In this document: one piece after another, positions 3,767 to 27,765 of the stretch
Numbering within the stretch: position 1 is the first letter of the stretch
Layout: every line of letters starts with the position of its first letter
IMG/VR virus record: IMGVR_UViG_3300037963_004144
Location: 1 to 29,536 of that record
DNA length: 29,536 nt
Source: a virus
Direction: 5' to 3' (one strand)
Position numbers and translations under genes: made by a program
The notes under the pieces: model-generated
Databases searched by the model: none
The model's input: the letters and a program-made list of their open reading frames with translations, nothing else
Told to the model about the DNA's origin: nothing

Positions 3767-6235
3767 TTAGAACGAACCACCATCTACAGTTATATTTTCC
3801 AGACTTCTTGTAGATCCACTACAAGAAATAACTGCTTGACTGTTTCCTTGACAATCACTAACTGTCAGTGCTCCAATCTCAAGATTGCCGTAAGAGATGC
3901 TTCCCATTACACTATTAGTTTCGGATACTGCATCAGCAACTACAATTCTTCCGGCACTGTCATCCCAGAATACTGAAGCAGTTTTAGCAGCTCCACCTGT
4001 GTAATAATGCATTACAAGACCAACGTCAATGTTGGCGTCAGAGGAAGGTGCTACAAGAGAACCACCACTATTAACAAGACCTACTTCAATTAGAGAGTCC
4101 TCAACCTTTAAGGATTCAGTATTGACAACAGTTTGAGCACCCTTTACAACAAGATTTCCATCAACCGTTAATGTTGACGCGATAGAAACATCTCCACTAG
4201 TATTGGAGATAGTTATAGCAGATGTTCCGTCCTTTGCCTTAAGATTTGTTGCCTCAAGAGTTGTAACATCAATTGTGTTAGCAACTGTAAGGACATTACT
4301 TGCGAAAGTGAGGTCTGCACTATCTTGAAGAGCACCTGAGCTTCCTGCGAGAACGACTCTAGTGTTTGTAAGATCACTAACAGTTGCAGAAGAAAGAATT
4401 GTTTCAGCACCGGAAATGTTAGCGCCACCGTTGCCATCAATGGCACCAGTTACAGTAAGACCAGCACTAACAACGGCATCCTTGGTAACTGTAATAGAAT
4501 CACTTACGGTTACATCACCAGTTACGGCAGCAGTGCCAGTTACGGCAAGAGTTGAACCATTAAATGTAAGATTAGCACTATCCTCAAGAGCACCGGAGGA
4601 ACCCGCAATAACAACTCTATTATCTGTCAGGTCGCTAACAGTTGCAGAAGAAAGAATTGTTTCAGCACCGGAAATGTTAGCACCACCATTACAATCAATG
4701 GCACCAGTGAAGGTGGAAACACCAGCGACGTTAATGTCGTCGAGGAAAACTGCCTGATTATTAGTATGAACAACGTTAGTGAGGAAGTTAGCAGCATTAC
4801 CCATATAAGCATGGGCAGAACACTGATAGTGAAGAACGGTAGGAGTTGTGTCGGTTACTTCGATTTCAGTGTAAGCACCAGCTTGACCAGCAGTTCCGTT
4901 TGTAGTTACATTAGTGCTGTATGCGGTGGTCTTGACCGCTTCAAGATAGAATCTAAGTGGGTGACCATTATTGCTAGAGTCTGCCTGATCAAATTTATAC
5001 TTTCTACCAGGAATAAAGGTAATAAATGGAGATTCTTGACCATCAATGAAATATGCAGAGGAAGAACCACTACCTAAGTATCTGTGTTTTGTAGTCTTGG
5101 AAGCAACAGTAACTTTAAAAGTGACTACTGCCGAAGACGAGCGACCAGCACCGACTAAGGTATCGTGCCCAGCGAAAGCTGTAGCAGTTACAATACCAGA
5201 AGCATTTACATCTACGATGGATGTAATAGAATCACTAACAGTAAGATCTCCAGTTACCGCGAGAACACTACCATTAAAAGTAAGATTAGCACTATCTTCA
5301 ATAGCACCACTAGAGCCAGCGATAACAACTCTATTATCGGTAAGATCACCAACAATCAGGGAGTTAGTAGAAAGATCTGTACCATCATAAGTAAGGTTTG
5401 CGTCATCTTCAAGTTCACCAGAAGTACCAGCAATAACAACTCTGTTATTTGTTAGGTCACCAATAGCTGCGGTATCGGCGGACAGAGTGTCAATATTGGC
5501 AGTTCCATCAAGATGAAGATTTCTCCACTCTTTACCAGATTCACCCAAGTCATAACTGTCATCATCATTTGGAACGAGACTGGATATAAATTCACCAGCA
5601 ACGTTAATATCATCAGTGTCAGCATCACCAAGGTTAATTGTTCCACCCTTGAATGTCGCTACACCGACAAATTCAGCATATCCCTGAACATTTATGTTTC
5701 CACCAACAGTAACATTCTTAGCAACGCCAAGACCACCATCAAGTTGAACACTACCAGTGTTAACATTACCGAGAGTGTTATCTGTTGTATTTGTGAACGT
5801 TGTAACACCTGAGATATCAACTGTAGAGTCAATATCAAAGTGACCTGTTACTGTGGTAACACCAGTCAAAGTTGAGTTGTTAGAACCAGCACCCCAACTT
5901 AAATTGCCACTTCCATCGTTGGTAAGAACTGAACCCGATCCACCTTGAGTTCCGGGGAAATAGTAAGTTACAATACCAGCAAGAGATGCTGGAGATGCTA
6001 GTGTAATATAACTAGTACCATTGTTCGTACCTTCTACGAGGTTGACACCAGATCCCTTGGTGGCACTCTCAATAGTCCAGAATCTACCTGAACCTACGAA
6101 CTGATTGTTTGCTGTTGTCGAGTCAATACCGACATAAAGGTCATATTTGTCGGTTGTAAATCCCGGCTCACCTGCCCTCAATGCTGGCAAATTACTAAAG
6201 AGACCTCTCTTGAACTGTAATACAGGAGCAGCCAT
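3767..6235 (-). CDS. Fibre-like virion protein with repeats and a cupredoxin-like segment
   Basis: The product is 822 aa and probably a tail fibre or other host-contact protein. Residues 1-37 (LQFKRGLFSNLPALRAGEPG, then DKYDLYVG) match the short N-terminal domain seen in Mtd-type and other phage fibre proteins. Most of the rest is Thr/Ser/Gly/Val-rich beta repeat. One unit (DLTDNRVVIAGSSGALEDSA) recurs four times, starting near residues 260, 297, 534 and 620, and an 86-residue block (about 511-596) is duplicated. Residues 366-490 form a different domain with a cupredoxin-like metal-site pattern (listed separately). The C-terminus has an INVDGxL-like stretch and DVGLVMHYYTG, common in marine phage fibres. 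The gene sits where T4 has gp12 and fibritin, has a late-promoter-like CTAAATA 25 nt before its ATG, and is followed by a terminator. Receptor binding is inferred, not shown. Confidence 0.78.
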   Translation of the reverse strand: MAAPVLQFKRGLFSNLPALRAGEPGFTTDKYDLYVGIDSTTANNQFVGSGRFWTIESATKGSGVNLVEGTNNGTSYITLASPASLAGIVTYYFPGTQGGSGSVLTNDGSGNLSWGAGSNNSTLTGVTTVTGHFDIDSTVDISGVTTFTNTTDNTLGNVNTGSVQLDGGLGVAKNVTVGGNINVQGYAEFVGVATFKGGTINLGDADTDDINVAGEFISSLVPNDDDSYDLGESGKEWRNLHLDGTANIDTLSADTAAIGDLTNNRVVIAGTSGELEDDANLTYDGTDLSTNSLIVGDLTDNRVVIAGSSGAIEDSANLTFNGSVLAVTGDLTVSDSITSIVDVNASGIVTATAFAGHDTLVGAGRSSSAVVTFKVTVASKTTKHRYLGSGSSSAYFIDGQESPFITFIPGRKYKFDQADSSNNGHPLRFYLEAVKTTAYSTNVTTNGTAGQAGAYTEIEVTDTTPTVLHYQCSAHAYMGNAANFLTNVVHTNNQAVFLDDINVAGVSTFTGAIDCNGGANISGAETILSSATVSDLTDNRVVIAGSSGALEDSANLTFNGSTLAVTGTAAVTGDVTVSDSITVTKDAVVSAGLTVTGAIDGNGGANISGAETILSSATVSDLTNTRVVLAGSSGALQDSADLTFASNVLTVANTIDVTTLEATNLKAKDGTSAITISNTSGDVSIASTLTVDGNLVVKGAQTVVNTESLKVEDSLIEVGLVNSGGSLVAPSSDANIDVGLVMHYYTGGAAKTASVFWDDSAGRIVVADAVSETNSVMGSISYGNLEIGALTVSDCQGNSQAVISCSGSTRSLENITVDGGSF
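4377..4423 (-). repeat. 47-bp perfect direct repeat, copy 1, in the fibre gene
   Basis: This segment is identical over 47 bases to 4635-4681, exactly 258 bp (86 codons) away. The surrounding protein (ISGAETILSSATVSDLT) is repeated too, so this is an in-frame module duplication inside the fibre gene. Confidence 0.9.
4635..4681 (-). repeat. 47-bp perfect direct repeat, copy 2, in the fibre gene
   Basis: Identical to 4377-4423. Flanking bases differ at several positions between the copies while the 47-bp core does not, which suggests a fairly recent duplication or ongoing gene conversion, or strong constraint on the core. Confidence 0.9.
4766..5140 (-). other. Cupredoxin-like domain inside the fibre-like protein
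   Basis: Residues 366-490 of the 822-aa protein differ from the surrounding repeats. They contain FIPGRKYKFDQADSSNNGHP and later VLHYQCSAHAYMGNAANF. His425, Cys472, His475 and Met478 occur in the order His...Cys-x2-His-x2-Met, like the copper ligands of plastocyanin-type proteins (His...Cys-x2-His-x4-Met); the short His-x2-Met spacing is closer to CuA sites. A beta sandwich fold is likely from the strand pattern. Copper binding is inference; the domain may keep the residues without the metal. Confidence 0.55.
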
Positions 6236-15891: not shown

Positions 15892-18800
15892 CTATCCCAG
15901 GTCCTTTCTGAGAGATCCATTGTCTCTCAAACCGAATCCCCGTCTTTGGATAGTGGGGAATGTTGACAATCCAGCATCAACTCTCAAACCAGTAACACCG
16001 ATAGCGATTGGAGAAGATGCTCTGGTAAATCCAGAAAGTCTTCCCCAAGAAAGTATTCCTTGTGGAACCGTCAGACTACCTGTGGTAGTAAGACCTGTGT
16101 GCGTGGTTGTAGAAAGAATGTTACAAGTAGCAACTCCAGTCGTCGCAGTCGTGTGGAGGTCATTTATGATATAAACGTTATCGAGGAATGTTGTTCCGAT
16201 GGCAACGATTGAATTATCAGAACCGTTGATGGATCTAACACCATTACCAACACTTGTGTTCTTGACGAAGATTGGATAACCTTCTTGAAGTCCTGCGGTG
16301 CTGGACGCTGTGAAACTAAACGCAAGAGCAAGAGCGTTTCCACCGGTTCCAACTGCTGTCGCAATACCGGTAATCGTTGCAGCAAAACCAGCAACAGCAG
16401 TGATTCCAGTTAAACTTTCAACAGAAAGTGCTGGCGTAGAAACCAGAACTTGTGGAGGTGCTGTGCGTGTGTATCCAAAACCAGCATTGGTTACAGACGC
16501 TGAGTTGATAAAATCGTTAACGATAGCAACCGTACCTGTAGCAGTTGTACCAACACCAACACCCACTGCCTTCGGAGCAGCAATCTTTAGTGTTGCTGAA
16601 CCAGAATAACCAGCACCTCCTTCAGTAACATCCAAGGAAGTAATCGTTCCTGTAGAGGAAACTACAGCAGTGACAGCAGCAGATACATGTTCTGTTGATG
16701 TATTAACAAGTAATCCATTGACACTGGTGATATTGATAGAAGATTCATTTTCTTCATAATTGAAGAATTGTGCATCATCAACAAATATTTCAGTTGCAGA
16801 TGCAGAAATGTCTCCAATAACTCTAGCGGTAGGATAAACCTGACCCTCAATAGAATCTCTAGACTTGTTAACAAGTTCTCCACCAAGTCTCTGATCTACC
16901 TTCTTCTTAATCCAGCTAAGTGGTTTGAAGTTGGTTTCATCAATGCCAAGACCCGCATATATGTTAGTTTCTACTTTGTCAGAATTATTGATATTGTAAA
17001 TTGTTCTTGGATCTTGAGCAAGACTGTTTTCAGTCTTCTGCATCTGTAGGAGGTCTCCAGTTTCAACGGTAGTGTTAACATTTACGCTGACACTATCAGT
17101 TCCTCTTGTTCCTCTGTAGAAGAAGATATCAATATTATCATTTGAAGTTGGTGGAGTTGTGAATACAATTGATGTACCACCAACGAACTGATAATGAACA
17201 TTAGGTTGCTGAATGACACCATTTACATAGATCAGCAGAACTGCTTCAAGATCAATTGCTGAAGAGTCTGGATTATTCTTATCAACTTCAAAACTTAGGA
17301 GTTCACCTTTATAATTTAATGGGAATCTGACACGAGATCCATCAATAAGATCGGAGATAGAATCAATATAATCAAGTTCACCAAATTGCCAAGCAGCAAA
17401 TTTATCGTTAAAGATATCCAGAACTTCAAATTCTGGTTCATTTACCATAGCAGGAAGACCTTTGGCAGTTACAAGACCAACTGGTTTGAACTTATCGCCA
17501 ATTCTAAATCCATATCCATTTCTTACAATCTTGAAGTTTTTAACTTCAAAGAGAGTTGATCCAATTCCAACTGCTGTTATAGCAGCACCGACTTCAACAT
17601 TGAGAAGGAGACCACTACCAGAATCAGTTGTAGCACCCTGACCAAGACGAGAAACTCCAATGATTGGTAGATTTTCATAGGAAGGTGATGGAATATTGAT
17701 AGTTGGATTAGAACTATATCCTGTTCCCCCATTTGTTACGTTGAACGCGAGAGATCCACCAGCACCAACTGTAACTGTAACAGCAGCGGCGTTACCAGTA
17801 TGATTTGGATCAGTAATTCCAATAGCAACAGATCCACGGTATCCAGATCCGAGAATGTCAGTAGCACCAGCTCCAATAGACTGAATTACACCACCAGAAA
17901 CAAATGCGGTCACAGAGGCACCAACAAGAGGAGCGACTCCAAGACCCTGAGTAGATCCAAGGGAAACAATCATTCCACCTCTTGGAAGTTGATTCTTGTT
18001 TACGTCAGTTTCAGAAATTACAAGATCATCATTTGAATCCTTTACGCCAGTGAACACTACATTTGATGTGCTGCCAGTTTCAGTGAAACTATAGTTTCCT
18101 CCAGTGTTGTTGTCAGTGGTTGGAGTTTGGAACATATTATTGATGAATACCAAACCACTACCAGTTTCAATACCTGTTGTGTTAGCACCACCAACAGTCA
18201 GACGATATGTCGCACCAATACCAGTGAATTGTCTAGTGATGTCATCATAAATTTGGTTGGATGCATAATCATTTCTCAAATATACTCTACCATTGAAAGT
18301 AGACTTATGGAATGGAATATTGCTGTTATCAACCAGTTCTTGAGTATTACCTCTAGGTGCTTCAGTAAAGTGAATCTTACTTCTGGTCATATTGTAAGAA
18401 CCTTGGAACACTCTGATGGTGGATCCGTCAGTATGTGTGGTTGCTAAAGTTCCAACAAATCCTCTCTCAGTCTTGACAACGTTAAAGGAACCTGTTCCTG
18501 TAATAGGTCCGATAGTTGTGGTTCCAAGACCTACAGCGTTAACCTTAAGAAACTCATCATCAACCTTCAGAACATCTCCTGGGAGAATGGAGGAGATTCC
18601 AGAAATACCAAAGTATGTTGCTCCAACAGAAACAGAACCACCATTGTTACTGAGAGTGTAGTTGATTGGACTAAATGCCAGAGGAGATCTTGATACTCCA
18701 TCAATTGTAATCAAAGATTTCTCCAGTTTCTTCACCATTTCAAGAGTGTGACCATTTCCACTTCCGGCAGAGTTGAATGTAACTGCTGCACCAGTTTTGC

Positions 18801-21800
18801 TTGTGGCAAGTTTAAACTCATTATTGTTAATCTTGATAGCATAAACTGTAGAAGGAAGAACACTTCCATTAGACATAACCATAGAGGTATGAGCACCACC
18901 AATAAAGGTAGATCTTGGCGTATATGTTAGTTTTTCACGATTACTGAAGAAATGATCGGCAATTGTGAATACACCTGTTCCAAGATTGACTACGGTAGAG
19001 GCGCTAGGATTAAATTCCTTTTCAAATACTGGAACACTATTGTGCTTAACATCAAAGTCAACTTTATTAGTTCTATCACCATTAATAGAGTCAAACTGGG
19101 AGGTTTTCAGTTGTTCATTAGCAGATCCGTAAGTTAATGTTGCAGGAACATTATTCAAATCCTTCTCAGTCTGAATGATTTCGCTGTAAATTTGAACAGT
19201 GATATCATCACTAATGTTGGCATCTGGGTGGAATATCAGAACAAAGTCACTACCGCTAATATCAGCACCAAATGTGCCAATACCCATGGTACTGCCGATA
19301 GACAAATGTGGATATTGTACCGTAAAGGCGTTTGTGTTATTATGATTGAATAAGACCTGATGCAGTGCGGATGTATTGCCGTAAGATACTTTTGCGGTAG
19401 ATTTGACTGTTGTTACATCTGCCTTGTCATAAGTCAATACTGTAGAAATTCCAGTTCCTGAGAATGTGGAGAATTTCGTTTCAAGACGACCCTCTCTGAC
19501 AGAACTGTCTGGTTGACCACTTGCCTTAAAAATGTGAGTTCCAATTCCAGCACCGATTGTATTGAATCCAACAATCCTAGAGCGAACAAGAACATCATTG
19601 GACTCGGTATTCTCAAAATTCAACTTAAGAATATCAGATGCAATGTTGCTGGTGAAAGTTCCGATAAACTTAGGAGAATATCCTAAAGTGCTATTATCAA
19701 AGAAGAAGTCCGATCTATAAGTATCAGTTCCATCATGATCAATGAACATATCAACAATAGTCTTGTCTTTAGTAACAGTATCAATAAGTTCAATATTAGC
19801 AAATAAAGATTCAGTACCGCTTGAGGAACCCTCAAAAACTAATCCTGTTAAACCAGCACCTACAGATACGTTGTTTCCAATCAAATTAACAAATCCAACC
19901 GATTGTGTTCCAACGCCAGCAAGAGTTGTGTTGAAGTTATTCTTTATAAACTTAACATCTATATCATCATTATAAGGATCGTCTGGTGTGAGTCTCAGTG
20001 AAACGTTATCAAAATTATCCTTAATCGCTTGAATATCAGCAAGGTCATCTTTCGTATTATGAATAGATGCTCTCTCGACAGTGATTAAATCATCATTTTT
20101 TGTATTAACAACAATCAATTCAGTCGCTTGAAGATCTTTGCTATTTGGTTTGATCATCTGAACCAAATATCTGCTGTATCCATCATTAGCAATAAACTTA
20201 TCAATATCACGATACAGAGTCGTGTTAGCATTCTCTTGGTTAGAGAATTGACTGTTGAAGTTATCAATGGTCAAAACTCTGTTAGTCTTACATTCAATGT
20301 AATCTGAGAGTCTCTTATTCTGGAACTTGATAAACTTAGACTTGTTGTTTGATGCATCAATATCAATACCAAAATCAAAGAAGTTGATTGCATCGACTCT
20401 CATCGTGCTTCCATCTGCATTAAGGTTGATGATGTCGATTAATGCACTGCTGTTCGCAGAGGTACTTGTTGCCGCAGAGACTGTTCCCTCTGTTGTAATT
20501 CCAGTGTCGGCAAAGTTTTTCAATCCGGAAGAGTGAAGAATTCTATTGACAGGATTTACCCAATCTTCAAATTCTATTGGACTCTTAATACTGTAAGATA
20601 GATTCTGATAATAATCATTATCAGGGATGACCTGATAGTCTTCATTCAACTTACCTGTGTCATTTGACCAACCATAATCTGTTTCAAGAGAGTAATCAAC
20701 TTTAAAAATACCAGTATTTTCATCAACTTTGTTGACAGTCGCTATTGTGCCAGAATTTTTTCCGACAATTACATCATCTTCAGATAACTCATAAGTTCCA
20801 TAAACCTTAACTGCATCATTAAGATTATTGGTAATAATTAAATCTACTTCGGTATAAGTGTTTCCAGACTTTATGAAGAGAGATTCTCCAACAATAAACT
20901 CTAAAGGAGTTTGTACAACACTAAATGTTGGATAGTTGTTCTTATTGACAAGAGTAACAAAAGTGCTCTGACCATCAGTTTGAGCAACGCCTGCGTTAGT
21001 TGCGTAAGGAGAAATATCAAATTCAACCTCTGCAGGGTTGGTATTTCTATATGCTGTTACTTTAAAGAAGTTGTAAGCATAATCTTGGGAATTGAATCCT
21101 GTGCCTGTAGTAGATGCTAAAGAAATGTTCTCGGCATATACAAAGTCATTTACAGCAAATGGTGCTGTGGCGGTTGTAAATCCAAGAGTTGGAGTTGCGA
21201 GAACACAAGTCACGACACCGGCAGGTGACGAGAAAACACTATTAACGCCAACACCATTGCTATTGTTTATGGAGAATACTTTAGATTCTGTATCAGAAAG
21301 ACCCTTGGGAACATCAAGTATTTCAATCTTATTGATAGATGAACCCTGCATCTTAGCAATAAGGGTTCCATTATCATAAGCAGATCCGGTATCTGGATTG
21401 ACAAGAACAAGATCTGGAGGAGAAGTGAATCCGGAACCACCAGATGTTATTGTTATACCAGAAATGGTATTTCTGTTGACAATTGTAATATTTGGTGAGA
21501 TGTAAACTTCTGGACTGAGTGTTTTGTCTGCGGAAAAATCAAATCCTGCATCTTGTATGGTAACTTGGTTGATTCTACCAAGAGTTGTGGATGTAGGAAT
21601 TATATCAGCATTGATACCCGCAGTAGACGCAATACTTACGAACTTGGGGAGTCTCTTATAACTCGCTCCACCAAAAGTGATTTCTAATTTGTCAACACCA
21701 CCAAGAGCTCTTGGTGAAGAGGTGGAATACTTAAGAACACTTGTAGATGATTGATTATAGTCAAGATCCTCTGGGACACTCTTGAGGGAAACAGTAAATA

Positions 21801-24800
21801 CTGTTTCACCAACTCCTGTTACACTATACGTTCCGGAATAAGTGCTATCAATGAAATTAATTTCCGAATAGTTTGTTACTTCAGTATCAGCAGTGCTAAT
21901 GTATCCTGCCTTGTCTAGTTGATAGTAAACTTTGGATGGAAGGTTTTTATCAAAGTTGAGAGTAACTGTTGATGCAGTAACTGTATTAGCAATACCAACA
22001 GTTCCTACACCTACTGTGCTGAAGGTTGTAGAAGATCCAATAGAAACTAATTCATTCTTGAAATCGCGATCATAATAAAGTCTGAAGTTATAACCACTTA
22101 ACGAGGAATCATTTACATTGAATACCAAGTTGTTATCTCTAACAACATTCAATCTTGGGTTGATTGGAGACAATTCTTGACTGGAACCACCAGTAGATCC
22201 AAAACTAACTACGGTTGGTGGGTTAGAAACTGCGTCAAACCTTGTTTCTGCAAGATTGATAGTGTTGTCGTCAATTCTGTAAACAAAGTAAGATCCGGTG
22301 GAAAGACCAGATATAATAAGATCTGAATCGTAAAATACCTTGTCACCTGTCTTGAGACCATGCTCAGTGAGTGTCAGTCTATTTGTGGAGGTGTTTACCG
22401 CAGTTGAAGTAAATCCGATTGGATTAACAAGTAATTTATCATTAGCGGAGTTGTACTTGAGATATACGGAAACTGATGTGCCAATACCAACTGATTGCTC
22501 AGAATTAACGCTCAGATTTACAGTATCACCGTTAATCAGACCATGTGCTGTAGAAACAGCGACTTTTGCTCTAATTTTTTCTACCTTAGCAGTTACTTGA
22601 GTTTTATTTGAAGTTAAAGAGTATCTGTAATCTCTACTATCCCCATTTGACGTAATATTTCTGAAGAACAAACCTTCAGTATTTTTGGTGAGACCAACTT
22701 GAGTACAGAGACCAATTATATCATCAGTCTTTTTGACAATGAATAAAGTTTGGGTGTTTCCACTTTGAGGAATACTATAGGTTGCGCTAGTGTTGGTGTT
22801 GGAAACCGTGAACCCTTGTGAACCAGCAAATCTCTCAAATGTAACTTGTTCACCAGTTTTGAAGGGATGGTTAGGTAAGTAAATTCCCTGAGTTGGTACA
22901 GAAATTGTATACTGGCGACTTCCAGTAAAATATCCCTTGGAAGAGGAAGCTCCAACAGTGGTTCCAATACCTACAGATTGAATACTATTGAAAAATACCT
23001 TATCATTTACAGTAGAGTCAAAATATGGAACATTTACAGGTAAAGTGAATTTGCTTGGAGATACAAATACATCAGTGTTTGCCGTATGTGCGGCACCTAC
23101 AATGCCCCTCAAGACCCTAACTGCTTTCTTGTCTGGATATGTTCCTAAAACGGATAAAGTCTCTGTGCCGATGCCTAGAGTGCTTCCTACAGAGATGGAA
23201 TCAACAACTCTGTTGACAAATATATCCGTAACAAAACCAACTGTAGAGTTAGCCGCGACTTGAACAGAAAGGCGAGTTCTTTCTGACGAAACTCCAATTT
23301 TATGGGATTTTGTAAGACCAGAAATAAATGTAGATAGTCCAGAAACTGCAATTTGATCATTGTCAAAATATCCGTGAGATGGATCAACATTGACAGATAC
23401 TGCGCCACTCTTTTCCCAAACAAGAACTGCATTTTGATGACTTTGAATCGTGGTGGTTACATCTACAATAGACTTACCAGTGACTCTACCAACATATGCA
23501 GAAAGTCCACCACCATTAGTTTCTTCATTATCAAACGTTATAGTTTCTCCAACTCTATAACCTGTACCGGAATTATTAATCTTAAATCCATCTACAGATC
23601 CTCTAGTGATAGAATCAATTACAGCACTTTGAACCAGAATTTCATTGGGTTCGGAAACAAAATCATTAGTAGCAAATTTATCGCCAGCAACATAGGGGAG
23701 AGTATTTCTTCGTAAATCTGAAGAGTTGAAATCAAACGTTTGATTGATGTTTTGAGTTACTGGAACAGAAGAATAAGATTCACCAATGAAGAATGGGAAC
23801 TTACTATTTTTACCATCACTCGTTATCGTAGCATGGTAAGCATAAACTCCATTAGGATATTCTGGGGTTTTGGCATACCTTCCATTGTGCTCATCAAGGT
23901 CACCAGAGTCTGTAAACTTGTAATCCTCTACAAAGAATCCGGCAGCAAATCCAGAAGGTCTATCAGAAACTTCAGCAGTTGCTAGTTCGTAACTACTTGT
24001 TAGAATTTTGATACCCGAGTTTACGTCTGAAGGATCTGTATAGGCATAACCACCATAGATTGGATTACCATCGTATGCCCAACCAATAATTGGAGAGTGT
24101 GTTCCGCCAATATCACCAAAAGTATCAGCACCGATAGCAGTGGAATACCCTACTAATCCATATCCAAGTTTTTCTTCAGTTTCAACTAAAATTTCATCAC
24201 CAAATCTAGTATGAGCGTTGCAGACTAAATCTCTAACTTCAACATCAACAACACCATTAGATCCAGCAGAAGTTACAATTACTGAACTGGTATTTTGAAC
24301 ATAACCTGCACCACCAGTGAGAACTACAACATTAGTAATTTTTCCACCACTAACAATGGCTCTAAGTTTTGCTCCAACACCCTCACCCTCAACTTTAAGG
24401 TCTGGCGCAGATGAATATTCACTACCAGAATTAGTGACCTGTACAGAAACAACTTTTCCACCAGAGATTAATGGTTTTAATTCTGCATTTTTACCATTTT
24501 TAATCTTGATGTCTGGTTTTTTGTGGAAATTCAGGATTGTTGAACCATAACCTGTCCCAGTCTCATACAAATAAAGATCAACAATCTCACCTCTTACTGA
24601 TGGTGTTGCTGTGATAACCCCAGATATACCATCAAACTCCGCATTGACTGTAATTGTTACTGGAGGATAGGCAAAGTTTTGAATTCCAGTTCCTACACCA
24701 GTAATGTTGACATGCTGTCTCTTAGTGTAATCAGTTGTATTTGTTCCACCAACTCCAGCATTTGCAAGTCTGAAAGAGTGATCGTCAATCTTCAATACTT

Positions 24801-27765
24801 GATACTGTACACTAGTGGTCAATCCAGTTACAGCAGTATTATCTGTTGTATAGAGTATCTTATCTCCGTCTGAGAATCCATGATTATTGAAAGTAATTGA
24901 GTCACTTACAGAGGAAATATTTTCAGACTTGACCTTTAGTTGTCTGTTCTCATATCCACTTCCAGGGTTAGTAACTTTAATAGCACTAATATTTTTCTTA
25001 CCATCAAATAATCTAAATTTATGAATGCCTTGTGAAAAAGTTGTAAATCCTACTGTACTAATACCACTTGAGTAATTCTCAAATGTTTCAAACAACTTAA
25101 TTGTTGTTGTGTTGACAACTTGAGCAAAGTATACGGAACCACTCGCCAATGCTTTATCTTGATGAGTGTTTGAACCGCCAAAGATTCCTATTCCAATCGC
25201 ATTATTACCATTTCTGCTATAAACAATAGCATCACCACTTCTCAGATTGTGTGGTTTATCAAAACTAATAGTATCATCACTATTACTAATATTACCCCCA
25301 CCAGAAGTTGAACGAGCATCAAACTCAATCTCACGATATCTGGTTTCTAATATTGGTTGTAAAACTGCACCAGATCCATTACCACCATCAATAGTGATAG
25401 AAGCAACATCTACTAAATCAAAATCTTGTGGATCAATCTTTACTTCAGTTACACTACCACGAACCACAGGTCTTACAAGAGCAGTGGTATAAGCAGCTCC
25501 AGGAGAACCAATTTCAATAGTTGGTGGATTGATTACATCGTAGTTTTTACCACCGTTATAAAGTCTTACATTTTTGATTGGACCATAGTAAATCTTGTCA
25601 TTTGACTTGTAGTTTACAACTTCAGTACCGTTAACTAACATTCCTGTAGAACCAGGAATAGTTGATGTGCCCTTACCGTCTTTGATATTTCTGACGATTG
25701 GGAATTTTTTCAGTAATTGTTGAGGATAAATTGCCTCACTCTTTTGAGATGCAAGAACAAATTTGTGTGTTCCTGCCCCAGCAGAGGTAAATTCCAAAGA
25801 AGATCCCCCTTCAATCAAAGACCTAGAGGCAAAGAGTTTTATTTGATTGGATGCGGACAGTACTTTGACGAAGTAAACGCCCTCAGAGAGTCCTACAAGG
25901 GTGTCTGAGGATGCTTTATAGAAGACTTCATCACCAGTTACGAAGGGAACTGGACTTGCAAAGGAAATAATACTATACTTTTGTGTTGACGCATCAAATC
26001 CTTGAAGAGCACTACCAGCAGCAGACGCAAGAGTAGCACTCAGAGCAGTTTCACTAATATCATATGAAGGTAAAGAGTTTGAAGCAACATATGCATGGGT
26101 TTCGTCAGTATATACATTCTGAACATCACTGGTGATGGTATTGTCACTATAGAACAATGGAGTGCCACTACTGGTGGCGGTTTCAAGTTTTCTCCTAATT
26201 GTGTAGATTGTTGTAGAATTAGCAGTAAATCCTACAAGGTTGTCAAGGGTGATTTGCTTGTTAACAGCACTAACTGTAGCGACTACAGCGTTCGCATGGA
26301 GAACAGTTTCTGTGGATCCACTTAGAATATCTACAGTATCTCCAACCTTGAGACTTGAATCATCAATTTCACTCTTTAGTTGAACTGTGGCACCATTGAT
26401 GCTCTCTACATCAAATCTACAACTTGTGTTATAAATCCAACTATTAGCAAATATTTGCTTATCAGTCTTATTCAGTTCTGGATTTTTGATTCTTTCGCCA
26501 ATATTTTTGACAAATATCTTTTGACCTTCATTAGAAAGCAAAATGTCATTCGTCGCTTTGAACTCAGAAAGAACTCCTCCAATACGAACTTCTACTTTCT
26601 TGGAAATATCACCATCTTCGTAACCAATGTAGACCTCATCAGTTCTAAGTTCTGTTGATGGTGAAATCGCAGTTCCGATACCACTACATCCAAGAAACTG
26701 GTTTACAGTCTTATCTGTATACTCAATAGTGTTTCTTCCAGAAATAATCTTTCCGGTTTGAGCAAATCCAACTGTAGAATCAACAGTTACTACAGAAGCA
26801 CCAACACTAACTGTATTTGCTACTCTAGTAGCAGGTTGAACTTTGAATGTTCCCTCAATAAGATCTCTATCATCAAAACCTACAAACAGTCCAAGTTTGT
26901 AATATGTGCTAATTCCAGAGCGTGTGAAAATTTCAACTTCTGATACAGAAGCTTGAGTTGCACTATCAGTAGACTTTCTAATTGTTTGCCCAACTAACTT
27001 GTTTGGATCGCCAGAAACTCTCTCAACAACAACTTCTTCTCTTCTCCTAAACTTTGCTGCTGAAGGTTTTATTAGATAGTCTTCTAGATCAATTACCTTT
27101 GGATCAACACCATAAAGAACTTTGAAGAGAATCTTGAAAGAATCCTCTGTTCCTTTTGATTCGTATAAACTTCTTATCTCTTTAACAAAGTTGTTTACGT
27201 CTAAATCATCTACAAAATCAACATCTTCAAGACCAGGAGCAAAAGAATATTTTAATTTTCTGTAGAACTCCTTTAGAAATAAAGCACTAAGGTTCTGTAC
27301 CGTAGAACCATTGGCATGAACTTCTTCAGAGGTGTCGCTGAATATTAATTCTTCTGGATCAAGAGCGGAACGATAAGAAGAAATACCACTAAAACCTCTA
27401 ATACATCCCGTAAAAGAAGTTGCAGTTTTGCCAGTATATGTTATAATTTCATCACCGATCTTAAACAGACCATACTCATCAGGAAATCCCTTGGTTGTAG
27501 AAACCTGAACTGTATCAGCAGTAGAGGAAATTCCAGCAGTCAAACTGGTGTATCCAGTGACAACCTCTGGTGTAAGGTTATCAAATTTGAGATACTGGTC
27601 TAAGTTCTCAACAATATCAGTAGCACCGCCCTGATGTTCTTGAGAAATATAATATTGCTTCAGAAAGTCAATAGATTTTGGACTTTCGGATCTAAGAAAT
27701 TCGGGTAACTGACTCTCAATTACTTGCTGAACTTTTACCCTTCTTTCAAAGCCTGTTTGTATCAT
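15892..27765 (-). CDS. Giant 3957-aa baseplate protein in the gp7 position
   Basis: The product is 3957 aa, nearly four times T4 gp7 (1032 aa), and lies between gp6 and gp8 exactly where T4 has gp7. The N-terminal 260 residues look like a conserved baseplate core (GFERRVKVQQVIESQLPEFL; VKEIRSLYESKGTEDSFKIL; DPKVIDLEDYLIKPSAAKF). A second core near the C-terminus (about 3455-3650) has FAAWQFGELDYIDSISDLID, LLIYVNGVIQQPNVHYQFVG and FKPLSWIKKKVDQRLGGELV, and the protein ends in LSWGRLSGFTRASS then RRGFGLRDNGSLRKD. In between is a chain of beta modules: GxGY/F repeats, 'IGDEIITY...RG' modules, and a YHYH-like domain at about 1220-1330. The ribosome binding site AGAGAGGA overlaps the gp6 stop, 2 nt from the ATG. 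Equivalence to gp7 rests on order, not on sequence I could align. Confidence 0.85.
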   Translation of the reverse strand: MIQTGFERRVKVQQVIESQLPEFLRSESPKSIDFLKQYYISQEHQGGATDIVENLDQYLKFDNLTPEVVTGYTSLTAGISSTADTVQVSTTKGFPDEYGLFKIGDEIITYTGKTATSFTGCIRGFSGISSYRSALDPEELIFSDTSEEVHANGSTVQNLSALFLKEFYRKLKYSFAPGLEDVDFVDDLDVNNFVKEIRSLYESKGTEDSFKILFKVLYGVDPKVIDLEDYLIKPSAAKFRRREEVVVERVSGDPNKLVGQTIRKSTDSATQASVSEVEIFTRSGISTYYKLGLFVGFDDRDLIEGTFKVQPATRVANTVSVGASVVTVDSTVGFAQTGKIISGRNTIEYTDKTVNQFLGCSGIGTAISPSTELRTDEVYIGYEDGDISKKVEVRIGGVLSEFKATNDILLSNEGQKIFVKNIGERIKNPELNKTDKQIFANSWIYNTSCRFDVESINGATVQLKSEIDDSSLKVGDTVDILSGSTETVLHANAVVATVSAVNKQITLDNLVGFTANSTTIYTIRRKLETATSSGTPLFYSDNTITSDVQNVYTDETHAYVASNSLPSYDISETALSATLASAAGSALQGFDASTQKYSIISFASPVPFVTGDEVFYKASSDTLVGLSEGVYFVKVLSASNQIKLFASRSLIEGGSSLEFTSAGAGTHKFVLASQKSEAIYPQQLLKKFPIVRNIKDGKGTSTIPGSTGMLVNGTEVVNYKSNDKIYYGPIKNVRLYNGGKNYDVINPPTIEIGSPGAAYTTALVRPVVRGSVTEVKIDPQDFDLVDVASITIDGGNGSGAVLQPILETRYREIEFDARSTSGGGNISNSDDTISFDKPHNLRSGDAIVYSRNGNNAIGIGIFGGSNTHQDKALASGSVYFAQVVNTTTIKLFETFENYSSGISTVGFTTFSQGIHKFRLFDGKKNISAIKVTNPGSGYENRQLKVKSENISSVSDSITFNNHGFSDGDKILYTTDNTAVTGLTTSVQYQVLKIDDHSFRLANAGVGGTNTTDYTKRQHVNITGVGTGIQNFAYPPVTITVNAEFDGISGVITATPSVRGEIVDLYLYETGTGYGSTILNFHKKPDIKIKNGKNAELKPLISGGKVVSVQVTNSGSEYSSAPDLKVEGEGVGAKLRAIVSGGKITNVVVLTGGAGYVQNTSSVIVTSAGSNGVVDVEVRDLVCNAHTRFGDEILVETEEKLGYGLVGYSTAIGADTFGDIGGTHSPIIGWAYDGNPIYGGYAYTDPSDVNSGIKILTSSYELATAEVSDRPSGFAAGFFVEDYKFTDSGDLDEHNGRYAKTPEYPNGVYAYHATITSDGKNSKFPFFIGESYSSVPVTQNINQTFDFNSSDLRRNTLPYVAGDKFATNDFVSEPNEILVQSAVIDSITRGSVDGFKINNSGTGYRVGETITFDNEETNGGGLSAYVGRVTGKSIVDVTTTIQSHQNAVLVWEKSGAVSVNVDPSHGYFDNDQIAVSGLSTFISGLTKSHKIGVSSERTRLSVQVAANSTVGFVTDIFVNRVVDSISVGSTLGIGTETLSVLGTYPDKKAVRVLRGIVGAAHTANTDVFVSPSKFTLPVNVPYFDSTVNDKVFFNSIQSVGIGTTVGASSSKGYFTGSRQYTISVPTQGIYLPNHPFKTGEQVTFERFAGSQGFTVSNTNTSATYSIPQSGNTQTLFIVKKTDDIIGLCTQVGLTKNTEGLFFRNITSNGDSRDYRYSLTSNKTQVTAKVEKIRAKVAVSTAHGLINGDTVNLSVNSEQSVGIGTSVSVYLKYNSANDKLLVNPIGFTSTAVNTSTNRLTLTEHGLKTGDKVFYDSDLIISGLSTGSYFVYRIDDNTINLAETRFDAVSNPPTVVSFGSTGGSSQELSPINPRLNVVRDNNLVFNVNDSSLSGYNFRLYYDRDFKNELVSIGSSTTFSTVGVGTVGIANTVTASTVTLNFDKNLPSKVYYQLDKAGYISTADTEVTNYSEINFIDSTYSGTYSVTGVGETVFTVSLKSVPEDLDYNQSSTSVLKYSTSSPRALGGVDKLEITFGGASYKRLPKFVSIASTAGINADIIPTSTTLGRINQVTIQDAGFDFSADKTLSPEVYISPNITIVNRNTISGITITSGGSGFTSPPDLVLVNPDTGSAYDNGTLIAKMQGSSINKIEILDVPKGLSDTESKVFSINNSNGVGVNSVFSSPAGVVTCVLATPTLGFTTATAPFAVNDFVYAENISLASTTGTGFNSQDYAYNFFKVTAYRNTNPAEVEFDISPYATNAGVAQTDGQSTFVTLVNKNNYPTFSVVQTPLEFIVGESLFIKSGNTYTEVDLIITNNLNDAVKVYGTYELSEDDVIVGKNSGTIATVNKVDENTGIFKVDYSLETDYGWSNDTGKLNEDYQVIPDNDYYQNLSYSIKSPIEFEDWVNPVNRILHSSGLKNFADTGITTEGTVSAATSTSANSSALIDIINLNADGSTMRVDAINFFDFGIDIDASNNKSKFIKFQNKRLSDYIECKTNRVLTIDNFNSQFSNQENANTTLYRDIDKFIANDGYSRYLVQMIKPNSKDLQATELIVVNTKNDDLITVERASIHNTKDDLADIQAIKDNFDNVSLRLTPDDPYNDDIDVKFIKNNFNTTLAGVGTQSVGFVNLIGNNVSVGAGLTGLVFEGSSSGTESLFANIELIDTVTKDKTIVDMFIDHDGTDTYRSDFFFDNSTLGYSPKFIGTFTSNIASDILKLNFENTESNDVLVRSRIVGFNTIGAGIGTHIFKASGQPDSSVREGRLETKFSTFSGTGISTVLTYDKADVTTVKSTAKVSYGNTSALHQVLFNHNNTNAFTVQYPHLSIGSTMGIGTFGADISGSDFVLIFHPDANISDDITVQIYSEIIQTEKDLNNVPATLTYGSANEQLKTSQFDSINGDRTNKVDFDVKHNSVPVFEKEFNPSASTVVNLGTGVFTIADHFFSNREKLTYTPRSTFIGGAHTSMVMSNGSVLPSTVYAIKINNNEFKLATSKTGAAVTFNSAGSGNGHTLEMVKKLEKSLITIDGVSRSPLAFSPINYTLSNNGGSVSVGATYFGISGISSILPGDVLKVDDEFLKVNAVGLGTTTIGPITGTGSFNVVKTERGFVGTLATTHTDGSTIRVFQGSYNMTRSKIHFTEAPRGNTQELVDNSNIPFHKSTFNGRVYLRNDYASNQIYDDITRQFTGIGATYRLTVGGANTTGIETGSGLVFINNMFQTPTTDNNTGGNYSFTETGSTSNVVFTGVKDSNDDLVISETDVNKNQLPRGGMIVSLGSTQGLGVAPLVGASVTAFVSGGVIQSIGAGATDILGSGYRGSVAIGITDPNHTGNAAAVTVTVGAGGSLAFNVTNGGTGYSSNPTINIPSPSYENLPIIGVSRLGQGATTDSGSGLLLNVEVGAAITAVGIGSTLFEVKNFKIVRNGYGFRIGDKFKPVGLVTAKGLPAMVNEPEFEVLDIFNDKFAAWQFGELDYIDSISDLIDGSRVRFPLNYKGELLSFEVDKNNPDSSAIDLEAVLLIYVNGVIQQPNVHYQFVGGTSIVFTTPPTSNDNIDIFFYRGTRGTDSVSVNVNTTVETGDLLQMQKTENSLAQDPRTIYNINNSDKVETNIYAGLGIDETNFKPLSWIKKKVDQRLGGELVNKSRDSIEGQVYPTARVIGDISASATEIFVDDAQFFNYEENESSINITSVNGLLVNTSTEHVSAAVTAVVSSTGTITSLDVTEGGAGYSGSATLKIAAPKAVGVGVGTTATGTVAIVNDFINSASVTNAGFGYTRTAPPQVLVSTPALSVESLTGITAVAGFAATITGIATAVGTGGNALALAFSFTASSTAGLQEGYPIFVKNTSVGNGVRSINGSDNSIVAIGTTFLDNVYIINDLHTTATTGVATCNILSTTTHTGLTTTGSLTVPQGILSWGRLSGFTRASSPIAIGVTGLRVDAGLSTFPTIQRRGFGLRDNGSLRKDLG
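23776..24108 (-). other. YHYH-like domain within the giant baseplate protein
   Basis: Residues about 1220-1330 read HSPIIGWAYDGNPIYGGYAY, then FFVEDYKFTDSGDLDEHNGR, TPEYPNGVYAYHATIT and FPFFIGESY. The order 'GWAYDGxPIYG ... DLDExNGR ... TPEYPxGxYxYHxT ... FPxFIG' is the signature of the YHYH domain family (PF14240 type), here with YAYH for the name motif. His1223 and His1311 are kept. The family occurs in bacterial secreted proteins and in marine phage structural proteins; its biochemical role is not known to me. Confidence 0.8.

Follow-up and report, generated by a model that had tools for sequence, protein, structure and literature searches.

The tail fibres of the T4 gp37 type carry iron-binding HxH motifs, in which paired histidines in the fibre tip bind iron, and a Trojan-horse idea has been put forward for this tail-fibre iron (PMC11705849). 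The fibre described here has in common with them a predicted metal site in a phage tail fibre, but the site consists of a His2-Cys-Met set in a beta-sandwich domain. Searches of the openly accessible literature gave nothing relevant on cupredoxins or plastocyanin-like domains as parts of phage fibres or of whole virions, and none of the papers covered describes a virion with a copper protein; a superfamily-level annotation of the domain (InterPro/Gene3D) may already exist.

The whole stretch of DNA analysed (the window) is a 29.5 kb fragment of a virus record, and encodes T4-type baseplate and neck genes, with gp6-, gp7- and gp8-like proteins as well as head closure, head-tail adaptor and sheath-stabiliser genes. 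One of its products is a tail fibre of 822 aa, of the kind seen in T4-like marine phages, and the Mtd_N-type segment at its N-terminus is the probable attachment end (Table 1). Model and sequence comparisons together indicate that a domain in the shaft of this predicted baseplate-anchored fibre is a genuine cupredoxin with an intact predicted type-1 (blue) copper ligand set, present as an optional module.

Table 1 Positions of the fibre gene, its predicted copper site and a ligand-less relative in the window
Feature	Position	Strand	Evidence
Tail fibre CDS, 822 aa, domain-bearing	3767..6235	-	ORF; phrog_30742 tail fibre, E 3.9e-61
Mtd_N-type segment, N-terminal, residues 7-36	6128..6217	-	Pfam PF18454, E 4.6e-8, 33.3 bits vs 26.3 cut-off
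Modelled cupredoxin domain, residues ~370-484	4784..5128	-	AF2 pLDDT 92.9, pTM 0.85; Foldseek PDB, rusticyanin prob 1.00
His425, predicted first copper ligand	4961..4963	-	Invariant in 35- and 53-sequence alignments; codons CAT and CAC both used
Pro426, directly after first ligand	4958..4960	-	Pro in 239/253 distinct copies; Asn in amicyanin
C-terminal ligand loop, Cys472-x2-His475-x2-Met478	4802..4822	-	Same spacing in 253/253 distinct loop-bearing copies; loop length of amicyanin 1aac
Cys472, predicted ligand	4820-4822	-	
His475, predicted ligand	4811-4813	-	
Met478, predicted ligand	4802-4804	-	
Ligand-less domain relative in 3957-aa gp7-like baseplate protein (His to Tyr, Cys loop absent)	21919..22161	-	HMM match; profile-profile probability 95.4 with the 53-sequence alignment; AF2 model of low confidence

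Fold and ligand set of the fibre domain

A sequence-only reading of the window had placed a blue-copper pattern between beta repeats of the 822 aa protein, and the segment is indeed a folded unit flanked by shaft-like repeats. His425, Cys472, His475 and Met478 are found where that reading had put them, in the contexts NNGHPLRF and HYQCSAHAYMGN, and in the order of a type-1 copper ligand set, which is conserved. The His-x2-Met spacing had been called shorter than in plastocyanin; it is short, but it is not abnormal, as it equals the loop length of amicyanin (1aac). Cysteines are few in the fibre, as had also been proposed, with four in total (472, 515, 795 and 805). We discarded a disulfide as the role of Cys472, since the three other cysteines all lie outside the cupredoxin domain.

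The AF2 model of residues 364-490, for which the alignment of 36 rows was restricted to the window and IMG/VR loci, is of high confidence (Table 1) and shows nine strands, in line with the Greek-key beta-sandwich of about 8 strands that is expected of a cupredoxin. Cys472 closes the penultimate strand (model positions 104-109), His475 and Met478 lie in the loop that follows, and His425 is located just ahead of another strand; in the model, this layout of strands and ligands is the cupredoxin arrangement. Rusticyanin was the top Foldseek match in the PDB (E 5e-4), and all 50 matches listed were cupredoxins or proteins with cupredoxin domains, among them laccases, bilirubin oxidase, nitrite reductase, AcoP, pseudoazurin, SufI and factor V, in loose alignments (TM about 0.5, rmsd about 6). 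The cupredoxin-like fold expected from the sequence is thus supported by a confident model and its structural matches, and we consider it almost certain that the segment adopts this fold. Comparison with viral models (BFVD) gave 68 matches at E 1e-3, of which the named ones were mostly cyanophage virion proteins. The domain model was also matched by 'beta-sandwich proteins' of 124-425 aa from pithoviruses and marseilleviruses, with TM values up to 0.77 (BFVD A0A481Z6J5, A0A481Z7Q7 and A0A481YY19).

Most of the fold relatives among the PDB matches listed are electron-transfer proteins and copper oxidases, and the ligand set, with the axial Met kept, is that of electron-transfer cupredoxins. Both fit a redox-active site. 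On the host surface, the fibre would then sense or exchange electrons, and its adsorption would depend on the host's redox or light state; effects of light on infection by cyanophages have been studied (PMC7112961). The window encodes no redox partner next to the fibre, and the hosts of other phages carrying the module, discussed below, also speak against such a role, which we regard as improbable.

At the sequence level, searches of the PDB with single sequences gave no useful match for the domain, and no Pfam or NCBIfam model scored above its cut-off over it. The Copper-bind model (PF00127) did not match the window fibre, and matched a single one of 35 family members without reaching the cut-off (E 0.056). 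A profile of 53 diverse copies gave pseudoazurin as best PDB match (E 0.013), with plastocyanins among the next at about 0.1, mixed with immunoglobulins. When this profile was aligned by hhalign with one built from the plastocyanins and pseudoazurins of marine bacteria, the probability was 80.5 and the score 33.3, compared with a maximum of 15.9 for 200 column shuffles and 9.2 for the reversed profile, which relates the domain to known cupredoxins. The same alignment pairs His with His, and Cys-x2-His with Cys-x2-His. A relation to amicyanin over the whole length was not found with one amicyanin sequence (hhalign probability 8, over 28 columns only).

Type-1 copper has as its signature a cupredoxin fold with methionine as the fourth ligand, and the loop spacing is exactly that of amicyanin. 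Both count against the binding of another metal (zinc or iron) or a non-metal role, such as thiol chemistry, a reading for which the established iron sites in T4 fibre tips, as cited in PMC11705849, provide a precedent and which we judge highly unlikely.

Conservation and loss of the ligands

In an alignment of 35 sequences with a mean column identity of 48%, all four ligands were invariant, and in a more diverse alignment of 53 sequences (36% mean identity) the sole invariant columns were the four ligands and Tyr470. The larger alignment takes in copies that were found by a Cys-loop pattern, and the fair test is therefore provided by ligand-blind scans; a genome scan seeded on the Cys loop was likewise excluded as evidence for conservation of Cys, His and Met. 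Two scans of IMG/VR used seeds outside the ligand positions. With the seed between His and Cys, the site was complete in 80/80 copies, and with the seed upstream of His it was complete in 77/79 readable copies; both exceptions replace Cys472 by Ser and His475 by Asp while retaining His425 and Met478. These two related viral proteins (L298 and L305) represent a natural knock-out of the metal site. Both synonymous codons are in use among the copies at His425, Cys472 and His475, and the invariance is thus attributable to purifying selection rather than to recent copying. The conservation of the four ligands is well beyond chance, and the Cys and Met residues, for which free variation among homologues would have spoken against the copper-site proposal, are lost in few paralogues only.

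A tblastn search of phage records matched 71 of them, from phages of Synechococcus, Prochlorococcus, Pelagibacter and Methylophilales. Twenty-five of these loci were examined and contained 28 copies, of which 21 had all four residues, and the remaining seven belonged to a handful of paralogues. In gp7 of P-HM1, P-HM2 and MED4-213, an intact copy is directly preceded by a degenerate one that has Lys for His, Asp for Cys and no Met; the copies of S-BM3 and P-TIM40 lack both the His and the Cys loop, and those of P-RSM6 and S-CREM1 lack the Cys loop only. The window itself has a ligand-less relative in its gp7-like protein (Table 1), which was matched to the ligand-bearing 53-sequence profile with an hhalign probability of 95.4, and for which the AF2 model was of low confidence (49.5). 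The same gp7-like protein (15892-27765, minus strand) has a strong but partial match to the YHYH domain (PF14240, E 7.9e-26) at residues 1222-1315.

The ligand-less copies in the gp7 tandems, in S-BM3 and P-TIM40 and in the window gp7-like protein would be expected if the cupredoxin fold now served simply as a beta-sandwich, either spacer or adhesin, with ligands that are relics and hold no metal in vivo. Relics drift, yet the sites are complete in the two ligand-blind scans across diverged sequences with synonymous codon changes, and several of the losses affect at least two ligands at once (C with H, or H with both C and M), which is the pattern that a functional site would lead one to expect. 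We therefore consider relic ligands unlikely. Since some paralogues have lost the site with the rest of the domain kept, its retention in the fibre copies is informative. The Ser/Asp fibre copies and several paralogues without Cys loop do count against the copper reading, as they indicate that the fold can stand metal-free in some settings.

That the ligands are kept in almost every related virus suggests, from sequence comparison, that these fibres carry bound copper. We hold it very likely that the fibre domain has a real metal site, and probable, with somewhat less confidence, that this site is of the type-1 copper kind.

Distribution and proposed role of the module

In Synechococcus phage S-B05, a homologous fibre of 630 aa matches that of the window from the first to the last residues and has no cupredoxin match, which makes the domain an optional module. 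Phages that do have the domain include Synechococcus phage Bellamy and Prochlorococcus phage P-SSM2. Besides fibres, the domain recurs in gp7 and gp9, in proteins of Autographiviridae podoviruses (including fibres) and in pelagiphage fibres. It also has many matches in bacterial contigs, where Pelagibacter proteins show a fibre-like N-terminus, and many of these matches are probably phage sequence. Some bacterial copies look cellular, judged by the proteins that contain them: large adhesin-like proteins in Flavobacteriaceae and Alphaproteobacteria, and small proteins of SAR86 (~160-180 aa) with a lipobox-like start. No match to the domain was found in the plasmids searched.

The lipoprotein-like SAR86 proteins (L169, 3857-4342; L180, 3728-4273; L168) consist mostly of this domain with all four ligands, and at two SAR86 loci the domain gene adjoins the gene of a large (~1000 aa), probably secreted protein. 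Very large adhesin-resembling proteins on three alphaproteobacterial contigs (L178, L179 and L182) contain domain copies with the ligands kept, with two copies in one frame in L178 and L182.

We infer both copper as the metal and its role, and draw a role as staple in adhesion from the context of display, as the domain is shared by fibre, gp7 and gp9 proteins across several phage groups and is also present in adhesin-like proteins of bacteria and lipoprotein-like proteins of SAR86. The fibre would be made metal-free in the host cytosol, and each of its chains would capture a single copper ion, giving three in a trimer, at the time of lysis or later. The copper would then lock the ligand loops into a stable, outward-facing surface, and the fibre surface stiffened in this way would take part in contact with the host surface. 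Copper would serve as a staple for a displayed adhesion module, in place of disulfides, which may be hard to form in a virion assembled in the cytosol. For the statement as a whole, a cupredoxin module with a copper staple and a role in adhesion, we see about even chances.

A copper staple is preferred over redox sensing because phages of Pelagibacter and Methylophilales, hosts that do not perform oxygenic photosynthesis, have the module as well, as do adhesin-like proteins of bacteria. The fibre copper might also be a metal bait, recognised by a metal-uptake receptor of the host, as a copper form of the iron Trojan-horse idea; iron-bearing HxH fibre motifs and the Trojan-horse hypothesis have been published for marine phages (PMC11705849), and the named phages with the module are marine. 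The staple is preferred here because the module is also present in baseplate proteins, with gp7 wedges and other virion proteins being places where a bait is less sensible. No receptor for it is known from a host, a cupredoxin buries its copper ion and leaves it poorly accessible, and a role as bait is accordingly quite unlikely in our judgement.

Should the site be loaded, the attachment apparatus of abundant marine phages would bear copper centres, copper would become a testable factor in adsorption, and virions would possibly take part in the copper speciation of seawater. Homologous fibres with and without the module offer a natural plus/minus comparison. A more far-reaching possibility, to which we give some credence but which we consider doubtful, is that a large cupredoxin family, as yet without a name, equips the particles of many marine phages with real blue-copper centres on fibres and baseplates; such virions would carry copper, and their attachment to the host would depend on copper or redox state.

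Comparison with described families and cupredoxins

The cyanophage fibre and gp9 families phrog_30742, phrog_677 and phrog_27200 contain the domain, and are either named, for instance as tail fibre, or unnamed, with copper or cupredoxin mentioned in none. By fold, the best PDB matches are rusticyanin and the type-1 domains of multicopper oxidases, in which the Cys loop is longer. The His-Pro context of the fibre domain recalls the HPxH motif of laccases and multicopper oxidases; these enzymes differ in their trinuclear cluster and oxidase partner domain, neither of which was seen in the fibre.

Amicyanin (1aac), plastocyanin and pseudoazurin (PF00127) have the cupredoxin fold and the ligand order His...Cys-x2-His...Met in common with the fibre domain, and amicyanin also has the same C-x2-H-x2-M loop. 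The distance from His to Cys is 47 residues in most copies of the phage family and 39 in amicyanin. The proline that follows the first His in most phage copies, where amicyanin has Asn, is unlike amicyanin, plastocyanin and pseudoazurin, and would result in the loss of the usual backbone hydrogen bond to the Cys sulphur. Finally, plastocyanin, amicyanin and pseudoazurin are free carriers, whereas the domain described here is embedded in a fibre.
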